NCBI RefSeq assembly: GCF_021462505.1
Contig: NZ_JAKEDV010000005.1
Location: 62,001 to 126,000, forward strand
Source of the DNA: Thermus brockianus
GTDB taxonomy: Bacteria; Deinococcota; Deinococci; Deinococcales; Thermaceae
Direction: 5' to 3'
DNA: 64,000 bases
Both the position numbers and the translations under genes were made by a program. Numbering within the stretch: the first letter of the stretch is position 1; every line of letters begins with the position of its first letter. Below the pieces are notes generated by a model that saw only the letters and a list, made by a program, of their open reading frames with translations, did not search any database and was not told the DNA's origin. This document shows, one piece after another, positions 10,004 to 50,478 of this stretch.

Positions 10004-10021
10004 GCCCTGGGGGCGGTCCTG

Positions 10022-10047
10022 GGGGGAGGCCTCGAGCCTCCCCCTTT
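10022..10047 (+). terminator. Rho-independent terminator after PPIase gene
   Basis: GGGGGAGGC (10022-10030) pairs perfectly with GCCTCCCCC (10036-10044) around a 5-nt loop and is followed by TTT. The T tract is short, as is common in this GC-rich genome. Confidence 0.7.
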
Positions 10048-10052
10048 AAGAT
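10047..10052 (+). promoter_or_regulatory. Predicted leaderless -10 box of pgm
   Basis: TAAGAT lies 6 nt before the pgm ATG (10059), directly after the terminator stem of the upstream gene. No -35 was found; the terminator hairpin occupies that region. Confidence 0.35.
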
Positions 10053-10058
10053 GGGGCC

Positions 10059-12472: not shown

Positions 12473-13344
12473 TTGAGGGCCTCCCTTCCTAAGGTGCGCA
12501 TGTAGAGGAGGACGAAGGCGAAGATGAGCGCCAAAATGGCCACGCTGATGGCCGAGCCGTAGCCCAGGTCTTGGAAGTCAATGAGGGTCTGGCGGTTGTA
12601 GACGGCCAAGGAACGGGTGGCAGGGTTCGCCCCGCTCATGACGAAGATCACGTCAAAGACCCGGAGGGCATCCAGGGTGCGGAAGATGAGGGCCACCACC
12701 AGGGCGGGGGTGAGGAGGGGCAGGGTGATGGTCCAGAACTGCTGCCAACGGGTGGCCCCGTCAATGCTGGCCGCCTCGTAGAGCTCCTCGGGAATAAGCT
12801 GGAGCCCGGCCAGGAGGAGAAGGGCCATGAAGGGTGTGGTCTTCCACACGTCCACGGCGATGATGGAGGGGAGGATGAGCTCGGGACGGGCCAGAAAGGC
12901 CACCTTCTGCGAGAGGAGGCCGAGCTTGACCCCCAAGACGTTGATGACCCCGTAGACGTCGTGGAGCATCCACTGCCACATCTTGGCGGAAACCACCGTG
13001 GGGATGGCCCAGGGGATGAGGATGGCGGCGCGCACCAGGCCCCGGCCCCTAAAGTTGGAGTGGATGACCAAGGCGATGGCCAATCCCAGGATGGTTTCCA
13101 GGCTCACGGATATTAGGGTGAACTTCAGCGTGTTCCAAAGGGCCTGGCGGAAATCCGGGTCCTGGAGGAGGAAAACGTAGTTTTCCAAGCCCACGAACTC
13201 CGGGGGCTCCACGAAGGCGATGTCGGCCTTGAAAAAGGACCAGTAGAAGACCTGGGCCAGGGGATAGCCCGCCACCAGGACCACTACCAAAAGGGTGGGG
13301 AGGACCAGGAGCCAGGCCAGGCGGACCTGCCTTTGGGTAAGCAT
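12469..13344 (-). CDS. Sugar ABC transporter permease (MalF type)
   Basis: 291 residues with six membrane helices, starting LTQRQVRLAWLLVLPTLLVV. The EAA loop is YEAASIDGATRWQQFWTITLPLLTPAL at about 188-214. It lacks the extra helices and the large extracytoplasmic loop of E. coli MalF, as usual for the compact CUT1 permeases of trehalose/maltose systems. It lies 50 bp downstream of the binding-protein gene and overlaps the next permease by 4 bp. A TACCCT sequence 6 nt before the ATG could be an internal leaderless promoter. Confidence 0.9.
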   Translation of the reverse strand: MLTQRQVRLAWLLVLPTLLVVVLVAGYPLAQVFYWSFFKADIAFVEPPEFVGLENYVFLLQDPDFRQALWNTLKFTLISVSLETILGLAIALVIHSNFRGRGLVRAAILIPWAIPTVVSAKMWQWMLHDVYGVINVLGVKLGLLSQKVAFLARPELILPSIIAVDVWKTTPFMALLLLAGLQLIPEELYEAASIDGATRWQQFWTITLPLLTPALVVALIFRTLDALRVFDVIFVMSGANPATRSLAVYNRQTLIDFQDLGYGSAISVAILALIFAFVLLYMRTLGREALK

Positions 13345-13394
13345 GGCTTTAGGGTAAACCCGGGGGGCTTACCGCCCCCCGGGAAAGGGGCTTC

Positions 13395-42871: not shown

Positions 42872-43135
42872 TTAGCGCTTAAGGAGGCGGAAAAGGGTGT
42901 AGGCCGCTTGCCCTCCAGGGCCCGCCACCACCTTGAGCCAGGCCCCGATCCGGCCAAGCCGGCCCAGGGGAAGGAGGGAAAGGAGCAGGAAGACGCCCTC
43001 CACCACCTTTTTCCGCTCCTCGGGGGGAAGGTTTTGCCAGCGCGCCCACATCCCCTTTAGCCCCCCTTTGGAGCTTCCCTTAGGAGGGGCCCAGGGCCTT
43101 TTGCGGGGCTTGGGCATCTTGGCCATCCCCCTCAT
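42872..43135 (-). CDS. Small basic protein of unknown function
   Basis: 87 residues. A Lys/Arg/Pro-rich N-terminus (MAKMPKPRKRPWAPPKGSSKGGLKG) is followed by WARWQNLPPEERKKVVEG and a hydrophobic stretch (VFLLLSLLPLGRLGRIGAWLKVVAG) that could touch or cross the membrane. No family recognised. Its ATG overlaps the stop of the amylase gene (ATGA), so it belongs to the maltodextrin operon by position. An alternative start three codons later (MAKMPK) is possible. Confidence 0.6.
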   Translation of the reverse strand: MRGMAKMPKPRKRPWAPPKGSSKGGLKGMWARWQNLPPEERKKVVEGVFLLLSLLPLGRLGRIGAWLKVVAGPGGQAAYTLFRLLKR

Positions 43136-44844
43136 TCTAGGGGTTGGAAGAGGAGGTAGGAGGCCTCCACTTCCCCTTCCACCTCGCTTTCGGTCAGGAG
43201 GTCCACCCCCCGGGGCAAGGCCAGCCGGGCGCCCTCGGGGGCGAAAAAGGCCCAGACCTCCTCACCCCCATACCGCCTCCGGAAGGCCAGGACCCCCTTG
43301 GGGGCGGGAAGGGGTAAAAGGCCTCCTTGGCGCAGGGCGGGGTGGCGCTTCTTAAGGGCGACGAGCCGCTTCAGGAAGGCCTGGATCTCCCGGTTCCAAA
43401 GCCCCTCGTCCCAAGGGAAGGGGGCGCGGCAGTAGGGGTCGCCCCGCCAGAGGCCATAGGGGTTGGGCTGGGAAAGCCCCACCTCGTCCCCGTAGTAGAT
43501 GGCGGGGCTTCCCGGGAAGGCGAAGAGGAGGGCGTAGGCCAGCTTGAAGCGCTCCACGTCCCCCCTAAGCCGCCAAAGGGCCCGGGGGATGTCGTGGGAG
43601 GAAACGAAGGTGTACATGGCGTGGCGCACCTGGAGGGGCAGGGCCTGGTAGTGATCCAGGAGGGTCCTAAGGGCATCCTCCGCTTCCACCACCACCGCCC
43701 GGCCGTGCACGTCCCGCCCCGAAAGCCATTCCATCACCGGGTGGGCGAAGCCGGCGTAGTGCATGGCCCCGTCCAGGGTGTGGGCCTTGAGGGTGGGGGT
43801 GGTGTCGTAGGAGAGCTCCCCCAGGACCAAGGCGTCCTCCCGTTCCTCCTTGGCCGCCCGGGCCAGGGCCCTTAGCCACCGGGCGTTCTTGCGGTTGGTG
43901 CCCCCTTCCCCGATGGAGTGGGCCACGTCCAGCCGCCAGCCGTGGGCGAGGCGGAGCCAGTGGCGGATGGGGGCTTTGGGGCTATAGACGAAGCGCTCCT
44001 GGGTGAGGGGGGAGGCGTAGTCCAGTTTGGGCATGTGGCCGAGGCCAAAGAAGCTGGCGTAGGTGCCGTCGGGGTAGAAGGTGAACATGCCCCTTTCTGG
44101 GGCCTCGGGGTTTTCCAGGGCCTTTCGGAACCAAGGGTGGGTGGCCCCCACGTGGTTGTAGACCCCGTCCAGGATTAGCTTCATGCCCCGGGCTTCCAAG
44201 GCTTGGTAAAGGGCCCGCAAGGCCTCTTCCCCGCCCAGGTGGGGGTCCACCTCCAGGTAGTTCTCGGTATCGTAGCGGTGGCTACTGGGGCTTCGGAAGA
44301 TGGGGGTGAGGTAGAGGACCTCCACGCCGAGCGCCTCGAGGTAGGGGAGGGCCTCCAAGACCCCATAGAGGTCCCCCCCGTAGAACTCCCAGGCACCCTC
44401 CTCCCCCGGGGGCTCGTGCCAGGCCTTCTTCCGGATGGGCTTCCCCCCGTAACGCCACGCCCCCTCCTTGGGGGCAAGCTCCGGCCGGCCCTGGCGGAAG
44501 CGGTCGGGGAAGATCTGGTAGTAGACCGCCCCCAGGGCCCAGGCGGGGGGCAAGGGCCCCGCCAGGAGGTGGAAGAAGCGGTCGTAGCGGGGAAGGCCCT
44601 TTTCCAGGCCGTGGCTCCCCAAGTACCCCTCGGGCAAGCGAAAGCAGTAGCGAAAGGGGCTTGTGTGCACGTAGACCTTGGCCTTCAGGCCCCCTTCCCA
44701 AGGCGTCAAGGGCTTTTCGTGAAGCTCCCCGTCCTTCTCAAAGAGGAGAAGCCCTTCCTTCGCCGGGGTTTCCAGGAAAAGCTCCACCTCTTCCCCCAGG
44801 TCCGGGAAAGGAGGGTGGACGTGTTCCAGGTCGTGGCGGTTCAT
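43132..44844 (-). CDS. Intracellular GH13 alpha-amylase (neopullulanase/cyclomaltodextrinase type)
   Basis: 570 residues from the ATG at 44844, which overlaps the malG stop; a longer in-frame start at 44955 lies inside malG. The N-terminal 115 residues form a CBM34-like beta domain, and the GH13 barrel begins AVYYQIFPDRF. Conserved regions: I DGVYNHVG, II GWRLDVAHS (nucleophile Asp), III VLGELSYD (acid/base Glu), IV FVSSHD. There is no signal peptide, so it acts in the cytoplasm on maltodextrins brought in by the importer encoded just upstream. Confidence 0.92.
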   Translation of the reverse strand: MNRHDLEHVHPPFPDLGEEVELFLETPAKEGLLLFEKDGELHEKPLTPWEGGLKAKVYVHTSPFRYCFRLPEGYLGSHGLEKGLPRYDRFFHLLAGPLPPAWALGAVYYQIFPDRFRQGRPELAPKEGAWRYGGKPIRKKAWHEPPGEEGAWEFYGGDLYGVLEALPYLEALGVEVLYLTPIFRSPSSHRYDTENYLEVDPHLGGEEALRALYQALEARGMKLILDGVYNHVGATHPWFRKALENPEAPERGMFTFYPDGTYASFFGLGHMPKLDYASPLTQERFVYSPKAPIRHWLRLAHGWRLDVAHSIGEGGTNRKNARWLRALARAAKEEREDALVLGELSYDTTPTLKAHTLDGAMHYAGFAHPVMEWLSGRDVHGRAVVVEAEDALRTLLDHYQALPLQVRHAMYTFVSSHDIPRALWRLRGDVERFKLAYALLFAFPGSPAIYYGDEVGLSQPNPYGLWRGDPYCRAPFPWDEGLWNREIQAFLKRLVALKKRHPALRQGGLLPLPAPKGVLAFRRRYGGEEVWAFFAPEGARLALPRGVDLLTESEVEGEVEASYLLFQPLE

Positions 44845-46160
44845 TCCTTCACCGCTCCCGCCGTGTAGCCGGAAACGAAGTACTGCTGGAAGCCGTAGAA
44901 GAGGAAGAGGATGGGCAAGGAGCCCAGGACGCTCGCCGCAGCGAAGATGCCCCATTTGGTCTGGAACTGCCCCGTGGTGAAGCTCCTAAGCCCCACGCCC
45001 ACGTTCCAGCTCTCCACCCCCGTGAGCACCAGGTTGGCCAGGACGAACTCCGAGTAGGTGCCCACGAACTGGAGGAGGAAGATGAAGACGAACATGGGGG
45101 CGGAAAGGGGGAGGAGGATCTTCGTGAAGACCTGCCACCGCGTGGCCCCGTCCACCATGGCGGCCTCCTCGAGGCTTGGGCTGATGCTCTCCAGGTAGCC
45201 CTTGTACACCCAGGTGCCGAAGCTGATGATCCCCCCGGAGTAGGCCAGCACCAGGCCGGTGAAGGTGTTCAGGAGGTCCAGCCGGGAAAGCAGGTAGTAG
45301 ATGGCCACCAGGGCCAAGAACCCCGGGAACATCTGCACGAAGATGAAGAAGAGGAGCAGAGGGTAGCGCCCGGGCAGGTGGCGGAAGCGGGCGAAGGCGT
45401 AGCCGGCGGTGGCGGTGAGGAGGACCGCCAAAAGCCCCGTGAGCCCGGAGATGAGGAAGGTGTTCCGCACCCAAAGGAGGAACTTGGTTTCCGTCCCCTG
45501 CCCGGTGAACTGCTTGGGGGAGAGGAAGAGGGCGAGGAGGAAGACGAAAAGGGCCAGGGCGAAGAGGAGCCGGCTTTGCCAGAAATCCATCCATTCCGCT
45601 TCCGGTAAGAGGCGGCGGAGGAGGCCGATTAGGGCCACCCCGAGAAGGGAAAGCCCCGCCAGGAGGAGAAGCCCCACCTGGTACGGGTAAAGGACCACGC
45701 CCTGGACCAAGGCGGCGTAGTTTTCCCAGGAGGGCTCGGGCAGGTAGGGGATCACCTTGGCGTCCAGGAGGAGAAAGCCCGTGTTCGGTCTGCGGAAGCT
45801 GAAGAGGTTGTTGGTGGGGTCAAAGCTCGCCGCCACCACCTGGACCACGGGGTAGTAGACGAGGAGGATGAGGACCCAGAGGAAAAGGTGGGTAACCCCT
45901 TGCCAGAAAAGGGGCCAGGGGCTCCGCTTTCGCCCCTGGAGGCGGTTGGCGAGGGCGGTGTAGAGGAGGCTATAAAGGAGGAGCAAAACCACGAGGCCCA
46001 AAAGTCCCAAGAGGGCGTAGGCCCACCCGTAGGGCACGAAGACGCTGCCAAAGGCCACCTGCTTGCGGTAAGACCCCTCGTCAAAGAGGCGGTGGGCCGC
46101 AAACCAGTAGGCCCCGTAGAGGGCCAAGCCGGTGAGGAGAAACCCGAGAAGCCGCCGCAT
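44841..46160 (-). CDS. malG: Maltodextrin ABC transporter permease MalG, enlarged
   Basis: 439 residues, against about 280-300 normally. Two extra N-terminal helices (about 5-21 and 45-70) precede the usual first helix (91-110). A further insertion of about 65 residues with two helices (about 158-181 and 197-214) sits between the PSWENYAALV motif and the core helix beginning LLWVRNTFLISG. The EAA loop EEAAMVDGATRWQVFTKILLPLS is at 331-353. It pairs with MalF. Overlaps the amylase gene by 4 bp and follows malF directly. Confidence 0.92.
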   Translation of the reverse strand: MRRLLGFLLTGLALYGAYWFAAHRLFDEGSYRKQVAFGSVFVPYGWAYALLGLLGLVVLLLLYSLLYTALANRLQGRKRSPWPLFWQGVTHLFLWVLILLVYYPVVQVVAASFDPTNNLFSFRRPNTGFLLLDAKVIPYLPEPSWENYAALVQGVVLYPYQVGLLLLAGLSLLGVALIGLLRRLLPEAEWMDFWQSRLLFALALFVFLLALFLSPKQFTGQGTETKFLLWVRNTFLISGLTGLLAVLLTATAGYAFARFRHLPGRYPLLLFFIFVQMFPGFLALVAIYYLLSRLDLLNTFTGLVLAYSGGIISFGTWVYKGYLESISPSLEEAAMVDGATRWQVFTKILLPLSAPMFVFIFLLQFVGTYSEFVLANLVLTGVESWNVGVGLRSFTTGQFQTKWGIFAAASVLGSLPILFLFYGFQQYFVSGYTAGAVKE

Positions 46161-47489
46161 CTACCGTACCTCCCTTAGCGCCCCCGTGAGGCGGAAGTTC
46201 ACCAGGCTGATGGCCACGGTGATGGCGAAGATGAGGAGGCTAATGGCCGCCCCCAGGCCGTAGGCCGACTGCCCTTCGGCGCTAAAGGCCGTCTTGTAGG
46301 CCCAGGAGATGAGGATGTCCGTGGCCTGGGCCGTGGCCATCCTTCCCTCCTGGGCGGGACCGCCCCCCGTGAGGAGGTAGATGATGTAGAAGTTGTTGAA
46401 GTTGAAGGCGAAGGAGGAGAGCAGGATGGGCACCATGGGCTTTTCCAGAAGGGGCAGGGTGATGCCCCAAAGGGCCTGCCAGGGGGTGGCCCCGTCCACT
46501 TTGGCCGCCTCGTAAAGCTCGTCGGGGATGGTGGAGAGGGCGCCCAAGGTGGCGGTCATCATGTAGGGGAAGCCCAGCCAAAGGTTCACCAGGAGGATGG
46601 CCACCTTGGCCCAGTCGGGGTCGTTGAGCCAGGGGATGGGGTAGACGCCCAGGACCCCGAGAAGCCGGTTGATGGCCCCGAAGTTGTAGTTCAAAAGGGC
46701 TACCCAGACCTGCACGGTGATGACCCCGGGCAGGGCCCAGGAGACGATGAGGACCGTGCGGTAGAAGTTGCGAAGCTTTAGGCCCTTGTTGTTCAGGACA
46801 AGGCCCAGGATGAGCCCAAGGAGGGCGTTCAAAACCACGGTGCTCCCGGCGAAAATCACGTTCCACACGAAGACCGGCAGGAGGGCTTGGCTCGCTTGGG
46901 AAAAGATGAAGGCGAAGTTCCTTAGGCCCACGAAGCGGAAGGCGTTCACCTTGGCCACGAACTCCGCCCGGAAGGGAGGGGTGCGGTCCAGGACCAGGGT
47001 GTTCCCCTCCGCCTCCAGGATCCGCGCCCGCCCCCGGTGCCCATCGGCGTAGACCTCCACGGGCTCGCCCTGGCAGGGGTCGCAGCGGAGGGCCTCGGCC
47101 ACAGGGGCTTCCAGAACGAGCCTCTGGCCTTCCTGCTCCAGCACCCGGGTTTCCGTGGAACGGTCGGGGAAGCCGTTTTTCTGCCCCGAGTAGTCCGTGA
47201 AGGCCAGGTAGACCGTGAGGCCGATGGGGTAGAGGGTGAAGACCAAAAGGAAGGAGAGGGCGGGCAGGAAGTAATACCAGTCGGAAAGCCAGGGGAAGAG
47301 TCGCCCCAAGACCACGGCCCCCGGCAGGAGGACCAGGAGGGCCAAGGCCAGGATGGTCCAGCCCGGGGGGGCCAGGTAGGCCTCGAGGGCCAGGTACCCC
47401 AGAATTCCGACCCCCGTGGCCAGGAGGAGGAGGCCCAAAAGGAGCCCTAGGGCCAGGAGGAAACCTTTTAGACCCGGTGGGTGTTTCAT
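46161..47489 (-). CDS. malF: Maltodextrin ABC transporter permease MalF
   Basis: 442 residues. Extra N-terminal helices at about 8-35 and 44-63 precede the core. A loop at about 100-188 between the helix ending YLAFTDYSG and the segment FRFVGLRNFAFIF takes the place of the E. coli MalF P2 domain but is shorter; it contains a CDPC pair at 136-139. The EAA loop YEAAKVDGATPWQALWGITLPLLEKP is near 330-355. TATCTT (47496-47501, minus) lies 6 nt before the ATG, just after a hairpin, so malF can be expressed separately from malE. Confidence 0.93.
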   Translation of the reverse strand: MKHPPGLKGFLLALGLLLGLLLLATGVGILGYLALEAYLAPPGWTILALALLVLLPGAVVLGRLFPWLSDWYYFLPALSFLLVFTLYPIGLTVYLAFTDYSGQKNGFPDRSTETRVLEQEGQRLVLEAPVAEALRCDPCQGEPVEVYADGHRGRARILEAEGNTLVLDRTPPFRAEFVAKVNAFRFVGLRNFAFIFSQASQALLPVFVWNVIFAGSTVVLNALLGLILGLVLNNKGLKLRNFYRTVLIVSWALPGVITVQVWVALLNYNFGAINRLLGVLGVYPIPWLNDPDWAKVAILLVNLWLGFPYMMTATLGALSTIPDELYEAAKVDGATPWQALWGITLPLLEKPMVPILLSSFAFNFNNFYIIYLLTGGGPAQEGRMATAQATDILISWAYKTAFSAEGQSAYGLGAAISLLIFAITVAISLVNFRLTGALREVR

Positions 47490-47495
47490 GGCTAA

Positions 47496-47533
47496 AAGAT
47501 ACCCCCCACGGGGGAGGATGGTCCCGTGGGGGG
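47496..47533 (-). terminator. malE-malF intergenic hairpin and following -10 box
   Basis: A perfect 11-bp stem: CCCCCCACGGG (47502-47512 on the plus strand) with CCCGTGGGGGG (47523-47533), 10-nt loop. On the minus strand the sequence after the stem is TATCTTTT. It lies 14 bp after the malE stop and may partly terminate transcription or protect malE mRNA. TATCTT is also placed as a -10 box for malF. Confidence 0.65.
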
Positions 47534-47547
47534 GCGGGCATGGATCC

Positions 47548-48744
47548 TTACTTGCCGATGGCCTTCTTGATCTCGGCCACCATGTCCTCCACGATCTTCT
47601 TCACGTTGGCGTCGGGCCGCTGGATGGCCAGGCTAATGGCGTTCCCCCAGGGGCCCCAGACCTTGCCCATCTCGGGGATGTTGGGCATGGGGGTGCCCAG
47701 GGCGAAGACCTTGGAGAAGCCGGCCACCACCGGGTCTTTCTCCAGGGTCTTGGCGGCGCTCTTGGACACGGGGATGCGCCCACCCGCCCGGTTGAAGGAG
47801 ACCAGGTTCTTGCCGGTGATCAGGGTCTTGGCGAAGTTGACGGCGGCGGTCTTGTTCTTGGAGTAGGCGTTCACCACCACGCCCTGGACCCCAAGGAAGG
47901 GCCCCCAGGGGTTCTTGGCCCCGGGCGGGGTGGGGAAGGGGGCGATGCCGAAGTCAATCTTGGCCTTCTTGTAGTCTCCAAGCGCCCAAGGCCCGTTGAT
48001 GATCATGGCCAAAGCCCCGTCCTTGAAGGCCCCATCCGCCACGCCGTAGTCCACCCCTTCGGGCACGAGGTTGTAGCGGAAGCGGAGGTCCTTGATGAAT
48101 TGGAGCGCCTTCTCCCCCACCTCACCCCCGATGAGGAGCCTGCTCGGGTCCAGGTTGCCCTTAGCGTCCTTGCCGAAGACGTTATCCGCTCCAAAGGCCT
48201 TGAAGAAGCCAAAGTTGAAGTAGGGGTCGCCGATGTTGTAAAGGAAGCCGAAGGTGGAGCCGGTGGTGAGCTTTTGCGCCAGGCTCAAGAACTCTTCCCA
48301 GGTCTTGGGGGCTTCCTTCACGTACTTCTTGTTGTAGATGAGGGCCACGCTCTCGGCGAAGGCGGGCAGGCCCATGAGCTTGCCCCCAAAGGTGAAGGCC
48401 TCCACCGCCACGGGTTGCAGGTCAGCGAGGTAGCTTTGCGTCACGTACTTGCCCATGGGCTCCAGCACCCCCGCCTGGGCCATCTCCCCGAGCCAGTCGT
48501 GGGGGATGGAGACCAAAAGGTCCGCCGCTTGCCCTTGGGGGGCGCCCAGGATGAACTTCTGCTTGATATCCCCGAAGGGGACCTCCACCACCTCCACCTT
48601 GGTGCCGGAGGTCTTCTCAAAGGCCTGGGCTTGGGCCTTGAGCCATTCCAGTTCGGGGCCGCCAAAGTGGGTCCAGACCTTGATCTTCCCCTGGGCCAGG
48701 GCCAGGGAGAGTCCGAGGGCCAAAACCGCCAAAAGCTTCCTCAT
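47548..48744 (-). CDS. malE: Maltose/maltodextrin-binding protein
   Basis: 398 residues, signal peptide MRKLLAVLALGLSLALAQG cleaved near residue 18. The mature part closely follows the MalE pattern: KIKVWTHFGGPELEWLKAQA, ADLLVSIPHDWLGEMAQAG, GLPAFAESVALIYNKKYV, ALAMIINGPWALGDY and PMPNIPEMGKVWGPWGNA. It delivers maltodextrins to MalF and MalG. First gene of malE-malF-malG-amylase. GGAGGTGGG precedes the ATG. An inverted repeat sits between the predicted promoter and the start. Confidence 0.96.
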   Translation of the reverse strand: MRKLLAVLALGLSLALAQGKIKVWTHFGGPELEWLKAQAQAFEKTSGTKVEVVEVPFGDIKQKFILGAPQGQAADLLVSIPHDWLGEMAQAGVLEPMGKYVTQSYLADLQPVAVEAFTFGGKLMGLPAFAESVALIYNKKYVKEAPKTWEEFLSLAQKLTTGSTFGFLYNIGDPYFNFGFFKAFGADNVFGKDAKGNLDPSRLLIGGEVGEKALQFIKDLRFRYNLVPEGVDYGVADGAFKDGALAMIINGPWALGDYKKAKIDFGIAPFPTPPGAKNPWGPFLGVQGVVVNAYSKNKTAAVNFAKTLITGKNLVSFNRAGGRIPVSKSAAKTLEKDPVVAGFSKVFALGTPMPNIPEMGKVWGPWGNAISLAIQRPDANVKKIVEDMVAEIKKAIGK

Positions 48745-48766
48745 AATCCCACCTCCGGGCGCGTGG

Positions 48767-48780
48767 TAGCGTTTCCGCTA
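48767..48780. promoter_or_regulatory. Putative operator of the maltodextrin operon
   Basis: TAGCG-TTTC-CGCTA: 5-bp arms and a 4-bp centre, 22 bp upstream of the malE ATG and downstream of the predicted transcription start. It resembles LacI/GalR-family operators in size and position but differs from the site before sugar importer 1. Confidence 0.5.
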
Positions 48781-48807
48781 AAGGTTTTGTCCGCGCCCTC
48801 CACTTCA

Positions 48808-48835
48808 AGCATACTCCTTTGGGGAGGGGCGCAAG
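48808..48835 (-). promoter_or_regulatory. Possible malE promoter
   Basis: Minus-strand TATGCT (48808-48813) with CTTGCG 16 bp upstream (48830-48835). Matches to consensus are moderate. Transcription would start near 48801, giving a leader of about 57 nt that contains the putative operator. Confidence 0.4.
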
Positions 48836-48838
48836 TCC

Positions 48839-49870
48839 CTAATGGAGGGCCCTGAGCACCTCAAAGGCGATGAGGGCCAGGATGGCCACCTCCACCGCCT
48901 GGGTGCGCAGGTGGGCCACCTCCTCCGTCACCATGGCGTAGGTGGCCTCGAGGACCCTGAGCTTTTCCTCCACGCTCCTTTCCAGCTCGTGGGCCCCGTA
49001 GAGCTCCAAAGCGGCGCGGTAAATCTTGGCGTAGAAGAGGTCCTCCGTGATGCGGAGCGCCCCCTCCATGCGCGCCCGCACGTCGGCGATCTCCGCATGG
49101 CGGGCCATGAGGCGGCGCCTTAGGCGCTGCAGTTTGCCGTAGCCCCAAAGCCCCCGGTGCTTGAGTACCTCGGGCACCGCCTCCAGCTCCTCCGTCAGCA
49201 CCCGGTCGTAGTAGGAGAGCTCCAAAAGCTGGGCGTGGACGAACTCCACCAGGTCCGCCACGTCCCAGATGCCCTCCGAGTCCAGGATGAGCACCCGGTC
49301 AAAGCCCAGGAGGGCCAGGTCCTCCGTGGAGTAGCTGTAGCGGTAGCGCTCCATCTCCCGGCGCACCTCGGGGGCGAACTCCTCCTGGGCGCCCATCCAG
49401 AGGGGGGTGAGGTCCACGGGCGGCTCGTGGGCCTTGGCCCCCTCGAGGCCCAGGGCGTGGTAGACGGCGAACTCCTCGGAAAGCCGCTTTTCCTCGGGGC
49501 GGAGGAGGGCTCCTTGCAGGTAGGGCTCAAGGGCGGCGAGCTCCGCCAGGAAAAAGCCATCCCAGAAGGGAAGCTCGGGGATCTTGAGCCCCTTTTCCAA
49601 AAAGACCTCCCAGGGCACCCGCTCCCCCAGGTGGATGCGGAAGGAAAGGGAAACCACCCCGAACTCGTAAAGCCGGGCGGCAAGGAGGCCGGAAAGCCCC
49701 TCCACGCTCCTCACACCAAGCTCCACCTCCGCCGGGGGGTTTTGGAAGCGCACCGCCCCAAGCCGGGCCCGGGAGAGGCGGAGCCGGGGGGTGGAGAGCC
49801 GGGAGAGGTCTATCTCGTCCGCCAGGTCAAAGAGGCGGTAGAGGGCGATGTGGGGGGAAAGGAGGTTCAT
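48839..49870 (-). CDS. RMD1/DUF155-like protein (tentative)
   Basis: 343 residues. The central part YSYSTEDLALLGFDRVLILDSEGIWDVADLVEFVHAQLLELSYYDRVL and a C-terminal hydrophobic helix (VEVAILALIAFEVLRALH) resemble the RMD1/DUF155 family found in mitochondria and some bacteria, whose function is poorly known. The resemblance is by pattern only. Two long helices rich in charged residues (about 215-315) may form a coiled coil. It overlaps the end of rdgB by 4 bp and so is translated with it. Confidence 0.5.
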   Translation of the reverse strand: MNLLSPHIALYRLFDLADEIDLSRLSTPRLRLSRARLGAVRFQNPPAEVELGVRSVEGLSGLLAARLYEFGVVSLSFRIHLGERVPWEVFLEKGLKIPELPFWDGFFLAELAALEPYLQGALLRPEEKRLSEEFAVYHALGLEGAKAHEPPVDLTPLWMGAQEEFAPEVRREMERYRYSYSTEDLALLGFDRVLILDSEGIWDVADLVEFVHAQLLELSYYDRVLTEELEAVPEVLKHRGLWGYGKLQRLRRRLMARHAEIADVRARMEGALRITEDLFYAKIYRAALELYGAHELERSVEEKLRVLEATYAMVTEEVAHLRTQAVEVAILALIAFEVLRALH

Positions 49871-50478
49871 TCCAGCTTGGAAACCTCCCTGGGGGGTGGC
49901 CCCTCCTTGTACGCTTCCAGAAGGGCTTTAAGGGCCTTTCCCCGGTGGGAGTAGCGGGCCTTTTCCTCCGGATCCATCTCGGCGAAGGTCTTCCCCGCCT
50001 CGGGGACGTAGAAGAGGGGGTCGTAGCCGAAGCCCTTCTCCCCCCTGGGGGCTTCCAGGATGTACCCCTCCACGCTCCCCTCGTAGGCCTCCGCATGCCC
50101 GTCGGGATAGGCCAGGACCAGGACGGCCACGAAGCGGGCCTTGCGCTCCTCCCCCTTCAGGTGGCGCATCCTTTCCAGGAGGTAGACGTTCCGCTCCCGG
50201 TCGGTTTCCTTGCCCCCGTAGCGGGCGGAGTAGACCCCCGGTTCTCCACCCAGGGCGTAGACCTCGAGGCCCGAGTCGTCCGCCAAGGCGGGAAGCCCCG
50301 TGGCCTTGGCCACGTGGGCGGCCTTGAGGAGGGCGTTGTCCAGGAAGGTGGCCCCTTCCTCCTTGGGCATGCGCAAGGGGAAGTCGGCCAAGGAGAGGAG
50401 GGTCCAGCCCAAGGGGGCAAGCCCCTCCTTAAGCTCCCGCACCTTGCCGGGGTTGGAGGTGGCGAGGACGAGGCGCAT
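49867..50478 (-). CDS. rdgB: dITP/XTP pyrophosphatase (RdgB/HAM1)
   Basis: 203 residues. Removes deaminated purine nucleoside triphosphates. N-terminal signature MRLVLATSNPGKVRELKEGL, the catalytic LPALADDSGLEVYALGGEPGVYSARY region, and FGYDPLFYVPE plus KARYSHRGKAL near the C-terminus. Length is normal. TATCCT (50486-50491, minus) lies 7 nt before the ATG and shares its last T with the TGA stop of the upstream LOG gene. Confidence 0.96.
   Translation of the reverse strand: MRLVLATSNPGKVRELKEGLAPLGWTLLSLADFPLRMPKEEGATFLDNALLKAAHVAKATGLPALADDSGLEVYALGGEPGVYSARYGGKETDRERNVYLLERMRHLKGEERKARFVAVLVLAYPDGHAEAYEGSVEGYILEAPRGEKGFGYDPLFYVPEAGKTFAEMDPEEKARYSHRGKALKALLEAYKEGPPPREVSKLE

Follow-up and report, generated by a model that had tools for sequence, protein, structure and literature searches.

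A conserved hairpin between malE- and malF-like genes of Thermus adjoins a candidate leaderless promoter

Introduction

In a window of Thermus brockianus DNA, i.e., the whole stretch of 64,000 nucleotides that was analysed (contig NZ_JAKEDV010000005.1, positions 62,001 to 126,000 of the forward strand), a malE-like and a malF-like gene are separated by a short gap that holds a hairpin and, directly behind it, a -10-like hexamer. This raises the question of what such a junction does, that is, whether the hairpin ends transcripts behind malE, protects their 3' ends or does both, and whether malF is started anew by a promoter of its own. An earlier reading of the window's letters (the original prediction) is taken up where our results bear on it. 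All positions given below refer to the window.

Results

Gene cluster

The cluster is read from the minus strand in the order malE-like gene, gap of 58 nt, malF-like gene, malG-like gene and a gene for an alpha-amylase-family hydrolase. The malE-like open reading frame (47548..48744, minus strand) lies 5' of the hairpin, encodes a solute-binding protein (SBP) and is led by a Shine-Dalgarno sequence (SD). It is followed by two permease genes, malF-like (46161..47489, minus strand) and malG-like (44841..46160, minus strand), which abut each other with zero gap. The latter has the SD GGGAGGT, and the former has no SD outside the hairpin stem and is probably (also) leaderless. Family-level identity holds for all three genes (SBP_bac_1/SBP_bac_8 for the binding protein, BPD_transp_1 for the permeases). 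Their best NCBIfam matches are MalE, MalF and MalG, all under the curated cut-offs, and the gene names are therefore used by likeness.

The malE leader contains the palindrome TAGCGGAAACGCTA (48767..48780, minus strand), which recurs with small changes in most Thermus malE leaders and which we infer to be the probable operator of the operon. An exact copy of its half, AGCGGAAA, is found in the malE-malF gaps of four long-gap species (L097, L104, L106, L110), which may point to a regulated internal promoter in these species. The half-palindrome is absent from the gap of the window, such that an operator at this place was rejected. In one further locus, of Thermus sp. 2.9 (L092 / L008), malE is matched at best over residues 174-398 in one piece, which may reflect a frameshifted gene or a faulty contig.

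A perfect hairpin in the malE-malF gap

The perfect 11-bp hairpin that had been predicted between malE and malF was confirmed at 47502..47533 (minus strand). Complementarity between its arms (47502-47512 and 47523-47533) is 100% across 11 nt, with a loop of 10 nt between them. The coding (minus) strand continues behind the stem-loop with TATCTTTTAGCC and then the malF ATG, whose first base is 47489, i.e., the stem ends 12 nt before the malF-like start. A GC-rich stem with a minimum of about 7 bp is expected of intrinsic terminators, and the junction hairpin has 11 pairs.

The computed energy of the stem alone is -24.8 kcal/mol at 37 C and -14.1 kcal/mol at 70 C. The RNA of the whole gap folds as drawn with -26.8 kcal/mol (z -2.15), and 3/200 shuffles fold as well or better. 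When the 58-nt gap is shuffled 2000 times by dinucleotides, a single shuffle reaches a stem of 11 pairs. Within the 64-kb window, we find three stems of at least 11 Watson-Crick pairs (loop 3-12), all of them intergenic according to our own gene calls.

Two further candidates were rejected. Pairing of 47492-47507 with 47456-47471 would form a second hairpin around the malF ATG; this hairpin is missing from the consensus fold of the genus and was dropped. Furthermore, REPs are dispersed repeats, i.e., many scattered copies of one palindromic sequence, and the pattern CCCCACGGG N3-20 CCCGTGGGG occurs at a single place in the 2.35-Mb genome. An Rfam search at gathering score gave no family at the hairpin and only a tRNA in the window.

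Conservation of the stem

We compared 27 Thermus genomes including the window's own, one of which (L089) is of the same species. The nearest named loci to the window cluster are likewise from Thermus species. These were found separately, may be the same assemblies and were kept out of the 27-genome count. The malE and malF genes are adjacent in 27/27 genomes with a gap of 54-144 nt, and 26 of them carry the same stem 10-15 nt before malF; in the remaining one (L104) it is degraded.

Omitting L104 and putting L105 in register, whose hairpin loop is one base shorter, standard pairs are found in 284 of 286 pair cells (26 genomes). The misfits are one mismatch each in L108 and L112. Pairing is preserved in 9/11 distinct stem changes, namely six G-U and three compensated Watson-Crick changes. 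Even in the uncorrected alignment, 96.9% of the cells pair and three pairs are changed on both sides, and neither value is matched by any of 500 shuffles. Covariation is weaker than the paired fraction, i.e., the covariation score is reached by 13/500 shuffles and the pair types by 175/500. RNAalifold recovers the same 11 pairs with a small covariation term (-0.91). Given that pairing is kept in 26/27 genomes and through 9/11 changes, the junction stem is probably selected as RNA.

In four long-gap species (L097, L102, L103, L106), a second strong hairpin of 11-12 Watson-Crick pairs (loop 3) is observed 5 nt past the malE stop.

Outside the genus, the malE-malF gap of other Thermaceae again holds a hairpin of unrelated sequence (MAG loci L017, L018, L020-L022). 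Among 18 further loci of relatives (L195-L211, L213), 11 are uninformative as their retrieved stretch is without malE. Hairpins are found in gaps of 105-290 nt in members of other genera (L195-L199 and L209), where L199 is the weakest case with its stem in mid-gap. The more distant Deinococci MAG L027 shows a weak stem only (6 Watson-Crick of 8 pairs); stem scoring was done without L028 and L030-L032. It is the structure and its place that are kept between genera, not the letters.

The layout of these loci varies. In L195-L198 and L209, the hairpin comes soon after malE, its stem ends 69-194 nt before the malF start, and a separate SD (AGGAG) stands before malF; a T run follows directly in L195, L196 and L209. 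This is apparently an unfused arrangement. For a sister genus (L213, near 1456-1500), a 10-bp stem plus TTTT ending 8 nt before the malF ATG was seen by eye, with neither an SD nor TANNNT at -12.

Hairpins at binding-protein-to-permease junctions

To place the junction among others, binding proteins were searched by family PF01547 only, and the next gene was taken as permease if it had at least 4 predicted membrane segments. The own genome yields 19 PF01547 matches, 11 of which are followed by such a gene. Six of these 11 gaps are at least 30 nt long, and all six carry a stem of at least 9 pairs (malE-malF, L120, L121, L123, L125, L135); the remaining five are at most 3 nt long. As a background, such a stem is present in 16/84 co-directional gaps of 30-150 nt (Fisher p 1.2e-4), a comparison that is conservative because the background includes two SBP-permease junctions of the window.

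For three genomes taken together, 34 of 56 PF01547 matches (one under the family cut-off) precede a gene with at least 4 membrane segments. A hand count, in which orthologues are not independent, gives a stem of at least 9 Watson-Crick pairs in 15/17 gaps of at least 30 nt (p 9e-8). Here, the gene starts after L120 and L172 were judged by eye, and L179 gets to 9 pairs only with internal G-U pairs, which were disallowed in the background count. The exceptions are L173, which is stemless, and L176, with 8 pairs 2 nt from the start. In the own genome, hairpins are the rule at PF01547-type binding-protein-to-permease gaps of at least 30 nt.

The stem of one of these junctions (L123, G000:C22), CCCCGTGGGGG/CCCCCACGGGG, is similar to that of malE-malF with its arms swapped; TTTT comes next, and an SD-like GAGG precedes the permease.

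A candidate leaderless promoter of malF

The hexamer TATCTT (47496..47501, minus strand) occupies -12..-7 of malF, leaving six bases to the ATG, and is a candidate leaderless -10 box by its position profile, its score under a position weight matrix and its conservation. TANNNT is found at -12 of malF in 23/27 genomes, i.e., in the own genome and in 22 of the 26 others.

How specific this position is was assessed with 400 genes from the window and from 20 stretches (400 kb) of one other Thermus genome. Genes were taken from our own codon-usage-based ORF calls, not from annotation; the malF start was miscalled there and was corrected for the count of compact junctions given below. TANNNT starts at -12 in 49 genes and at -13 in 23, compared to 0-9 genes for any single offset in the ranges -30 to -17 and -11 to -6. 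A strong SD is rare among the genes with TANNNT at -12 (4% vs. 44%). Where the motif is kept (23 genomes), malF has a promoter score of 6.8-10.6; most of these values lie above the lower quartile (7.0) of the leaderless-like genes and below their median (9.6). Genes lacking the motif have their 99th percentile at 6.0. This comparison is circular in part, since the score was trained on TANNNT-selected genes and is set against genes lacking TANNNT.

With regard to SDs, none is found between the stem and the malF ATG in any of 27 loci. The SD duplex energies over -12..-4 range from -2.7 to +3.6 (27 loci), computed with letters that we take to be those of the anti-Shine-Dalgarno sequence, and the sole SD-like bases before malF sit inside the stem. 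The flanking genes are preceded by an SD in 25/25 scored loci (malE) and in 21 of 22 loci with a start call (malG), where the one exception, L104, has a doubtful start.

A scan of 43000-50000 gave no sigma-70 consensus promoter, and malF has no evident -35 box, its -35 region falling within the hairpin. The absence of a -35 box counts little, since the 49 leaderless-like genes also have no consensus in their -35 region. In four genomes (L100, L108, L111, L112), TANNNT is missing at -12, the stem is kept with at most one mismatch, and there is no SD outside the stem. The stem is therefore the more constant part of the junction, and malF can be expressed in other ways as well, i.e., this restart is not required everywhere. 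The predicted restart 6 nt before malF thus stands with regard to the leaderless -10 position, the typical score and the lack of an accessible SD, and falls short of generality in these four of 27 genomes.

Leaderless genes are reported to make up 36-46% in five Deinococcus-Thermus genomes (PMC3160421), and TANNNT is placed 6-7 bp upstream of on average about 30% of the ORFs of the phylum (PMC12340547). The latter source also describes that, in D. radiodurans, sequences with a -10 motif adjoining the ORF drive a reporter, and that RNA coverage climbs past this motif both there and in T. thermophilus (PMC12340547). Based on position and conservation, malF is probably leaderless, at least partly.

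Possible termination, protection and restart

Intrinsic terminators are further expected to have a T run directly after the stem. Behind the junction stem lies an interrupted T run (47494..47501, minus strand; 6/8), which would form the U-tract of a weak terminator and overlaps the -10 box. Other Thermus loci with a scored malF-side stem have 3-5 T in the 8 bases after it, and the MAG hairpins have 0 (L017), 2 (L020), 1 (L021), 2 (L022) and 5 (L018). A consensus scan of 43000-50000 reports 7 terminator-like sites, including the tail of the junction stem, vs. a shuffle mean of 9.5. With a T run that is interrupted here and poor or missing in relatives, protection of the 3' end is roughly as plausible as termination. 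The original prediction that the hairpin stops most transcripts was thus overstated, given 6/8 T here, 3-5/8 in the other scored Thermus loci and 0-2 in four of five MAGs. We give a mixture of both effects somewhat more weight than either alone.

The reading we favour, and hold to be fairly probable, is that the hairpin favours malE as a partial terminator, a 3' protector or both, by which it sets the ratio of SBP to channel of an ABC sugar importer, and that malF restarts leaderlessly. Transcription would begin at the malE promoter, and a GC-rich stem of 11-13 bp would form in the nascent RNA at the end of malE. Together with the T-rich stretch, the stem may end part of the transcripts and leave a malE mRNA with a protected 3' end. 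Because the stem ties up the sole SD-like bases before malF, read-through RNA should start malF poorly. Given its position and conservation, TATCTT, which overlaps the T stretch, could then give rise to a second, leaderless transcript from the A of the malF ATG.

That the stem acts on mRNA stability alone, as in E. coli malEFG, is a possible, if rather doubtful, alternative. Here, a single transcript would be made whose downstream part decays fast, the stem would block 3'-5' decay, and the -10-like hexamer would be incidental or minor. This fits the MAGs that retain a stem with a weak or absent T run (0, 2, 1 and 2 T in L017, L020, L021 and L022) and the finding in E. coli that a 3' structure in the malE-malF interval stabilises malE (PMC5927463). 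Against it speak the 6 T in 8 of the own genome and the 5 in L018, the hairpin plus T run after malE in L195, L196, L209 and L213 (by eye), and a -10 motif retained in 23/27 genomes.

The hairpin could also be a full terminator that makes malE its own transcription unit, with malFG transcribed from an independent leaderless promoter only. We consider this unlikely. The position of the -10 box and the lack of an SD before malF outside the stem (27 loci) agree with it, but the T run is weak and the -10 motif is missing in four genomes. Moreover, the operator-like palindrome of the malE leader is absent from short malE-malF gaps, such that malF would escape the control exerted at the malE leader if termination was complete.

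It is very improbable that the inverted repeat acts as DNA, i.e., as a protein-binding site beside the malF -10 box. The repeat has its arms just before the -10 box, with 21 bp from centre to centre, a geometry that would suit a dimeric regulator. However, single stem changes comprise six G-U vs. one A-C, which is a better fit to RNA pairing (p only 0.06), and the hairpins at the malE-malF junction of other Thermaceae are unrelated in sequence.

A chance inverted repeat of a GC-rich genome can practically be dismissed: stems are frequent in gaps of the genus (at least 8 Watson-Crick pairs in 29/100 co-directional gaps of 30-250 nt), but mononucleotide shuffles of the same 100 gaps average 2.4, so that those stems are not due to chance either, and the junction stem is both rare among shuffles of its gap (1/2000) and conserved with its pairing kept.

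Fused hairpin and candidate -10 box at other junctions

At malE-malF, the stem, its T-rich tail and the -10 box adjoin each other or share bases. In the gene sample used above, we identified nine compact hairpin junctions, i.e., with the stem ending 8-18 nt before the start. TANNNT stands at -12 in five of them, one being malF and two more lying in the window; of the other four, two show an SD in its place and two show neither signal.

The same layout is found at another binding-protein-to-permease junction (13345-13383, minus strand), with a 10-bp stem at 13359-13383, TACCCT at -12..-7 and the permease ATG at 13344. The junctions L167 and L186 look similar to it by eye, with a stem and TATCCT at -15. 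A further fused hairpin and -10 box precedes a phosphoglucomutase-like gene (10021-10058, plus strand; stem, TTTAAGAT, ATG) and is located outside a transporter operon.

The fused layout was not found described in a search of open-access literature, outside of which most subscription journals lie. Its parts are known and the malE-malF instance is apparently new; the combination may deserve a name as a variant. We can only speculate, and with low confidence, that it is a compact stop-and-restart unit of Thermus at operon-internal boundaries, in which the T-rich tail of the hairpin is at once the -10 box of the next, leaderless gene, such that a polymerase stopping at the hairpin would end up on, or be passed to, the overlapping promoter. 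Equally tentative is the view that such a unit would have one use at SBP junctions (malE-malF, 13345-13383) and another at other boundaries (10021-10058).

Discussion

The original interpretation of the junction is partly supported, namely by the conservation of the hairpin, by the hairpins at further SBP junctions of the genome and by the position of TATCTT. The termination of most transcripts was overstated, and the mechanism known from E. coli does not carry over.

If the favoured reading is true, a genome with short gaps and many leaderless genes makes unequal protein amounts from one cluster by means of a hairpin of about 32 nt and a promoter of 12 nt. The order of stem, TANNNT, six bases and ATG is a testable layout by which restart points within Thermus operons could be located, and the fused unit, if true, is a part for thermophile expression vectors. 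The gain is moderate, since the elements themselves are known.

The E. coli malE-malF gap had been invoked as a parallel, where REP elements were said to serve the same purpose; we also take the E. coli structure to be a REP. The parallel stands for the purpose, and it fails for the mechanism, which in E. coli is a block of 3'-5' decay, and for the type of element, which is single-copy in Thermus. That is, both systems share the malE-malF junction, a structure after malE and the purpose of malE over malFG. The E. coli structure between malE and malF is described to shield malE RNA from 3'-5' decay (PMC5927463), whereas the single-copy motif of Thermus lies 12 nt from malF.

Also comparable are the internal terminators that follow SBP genes in ABC importer operons of Ruminiclostridium cellulolyticum, which are also predicted in E. 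coli; partial intrinsic termination has been shown in Clostridia for hairpins after SBP genes with long stems and poor U tracts (PMC9045158). These and the Thermus hairpin have in common a GC-rich stem-loop that sits ahead of the translocator genes, immediately behind the SBP gene, a stem that is longer and a U content that is lower than in canonical terminators, and the purpose of excess SBP (PMC9045158). Compared to them, the hairpin of Thermus is a candidate terminator only, and its U-poor tail doubles as the -10-like box of the next gene.

Finally, malF shares with the leaderless genes of Deinococcus-Thermus the TANNNT 6-7 bp upstream of the ORF (PMC12340547, PMC3160421). In the parts of these papers that we could consult, the -10 motif is treated alone, whereas the -10 box of Thermus malF abuts or shares bases with the tail of an operon-internal hairpin.
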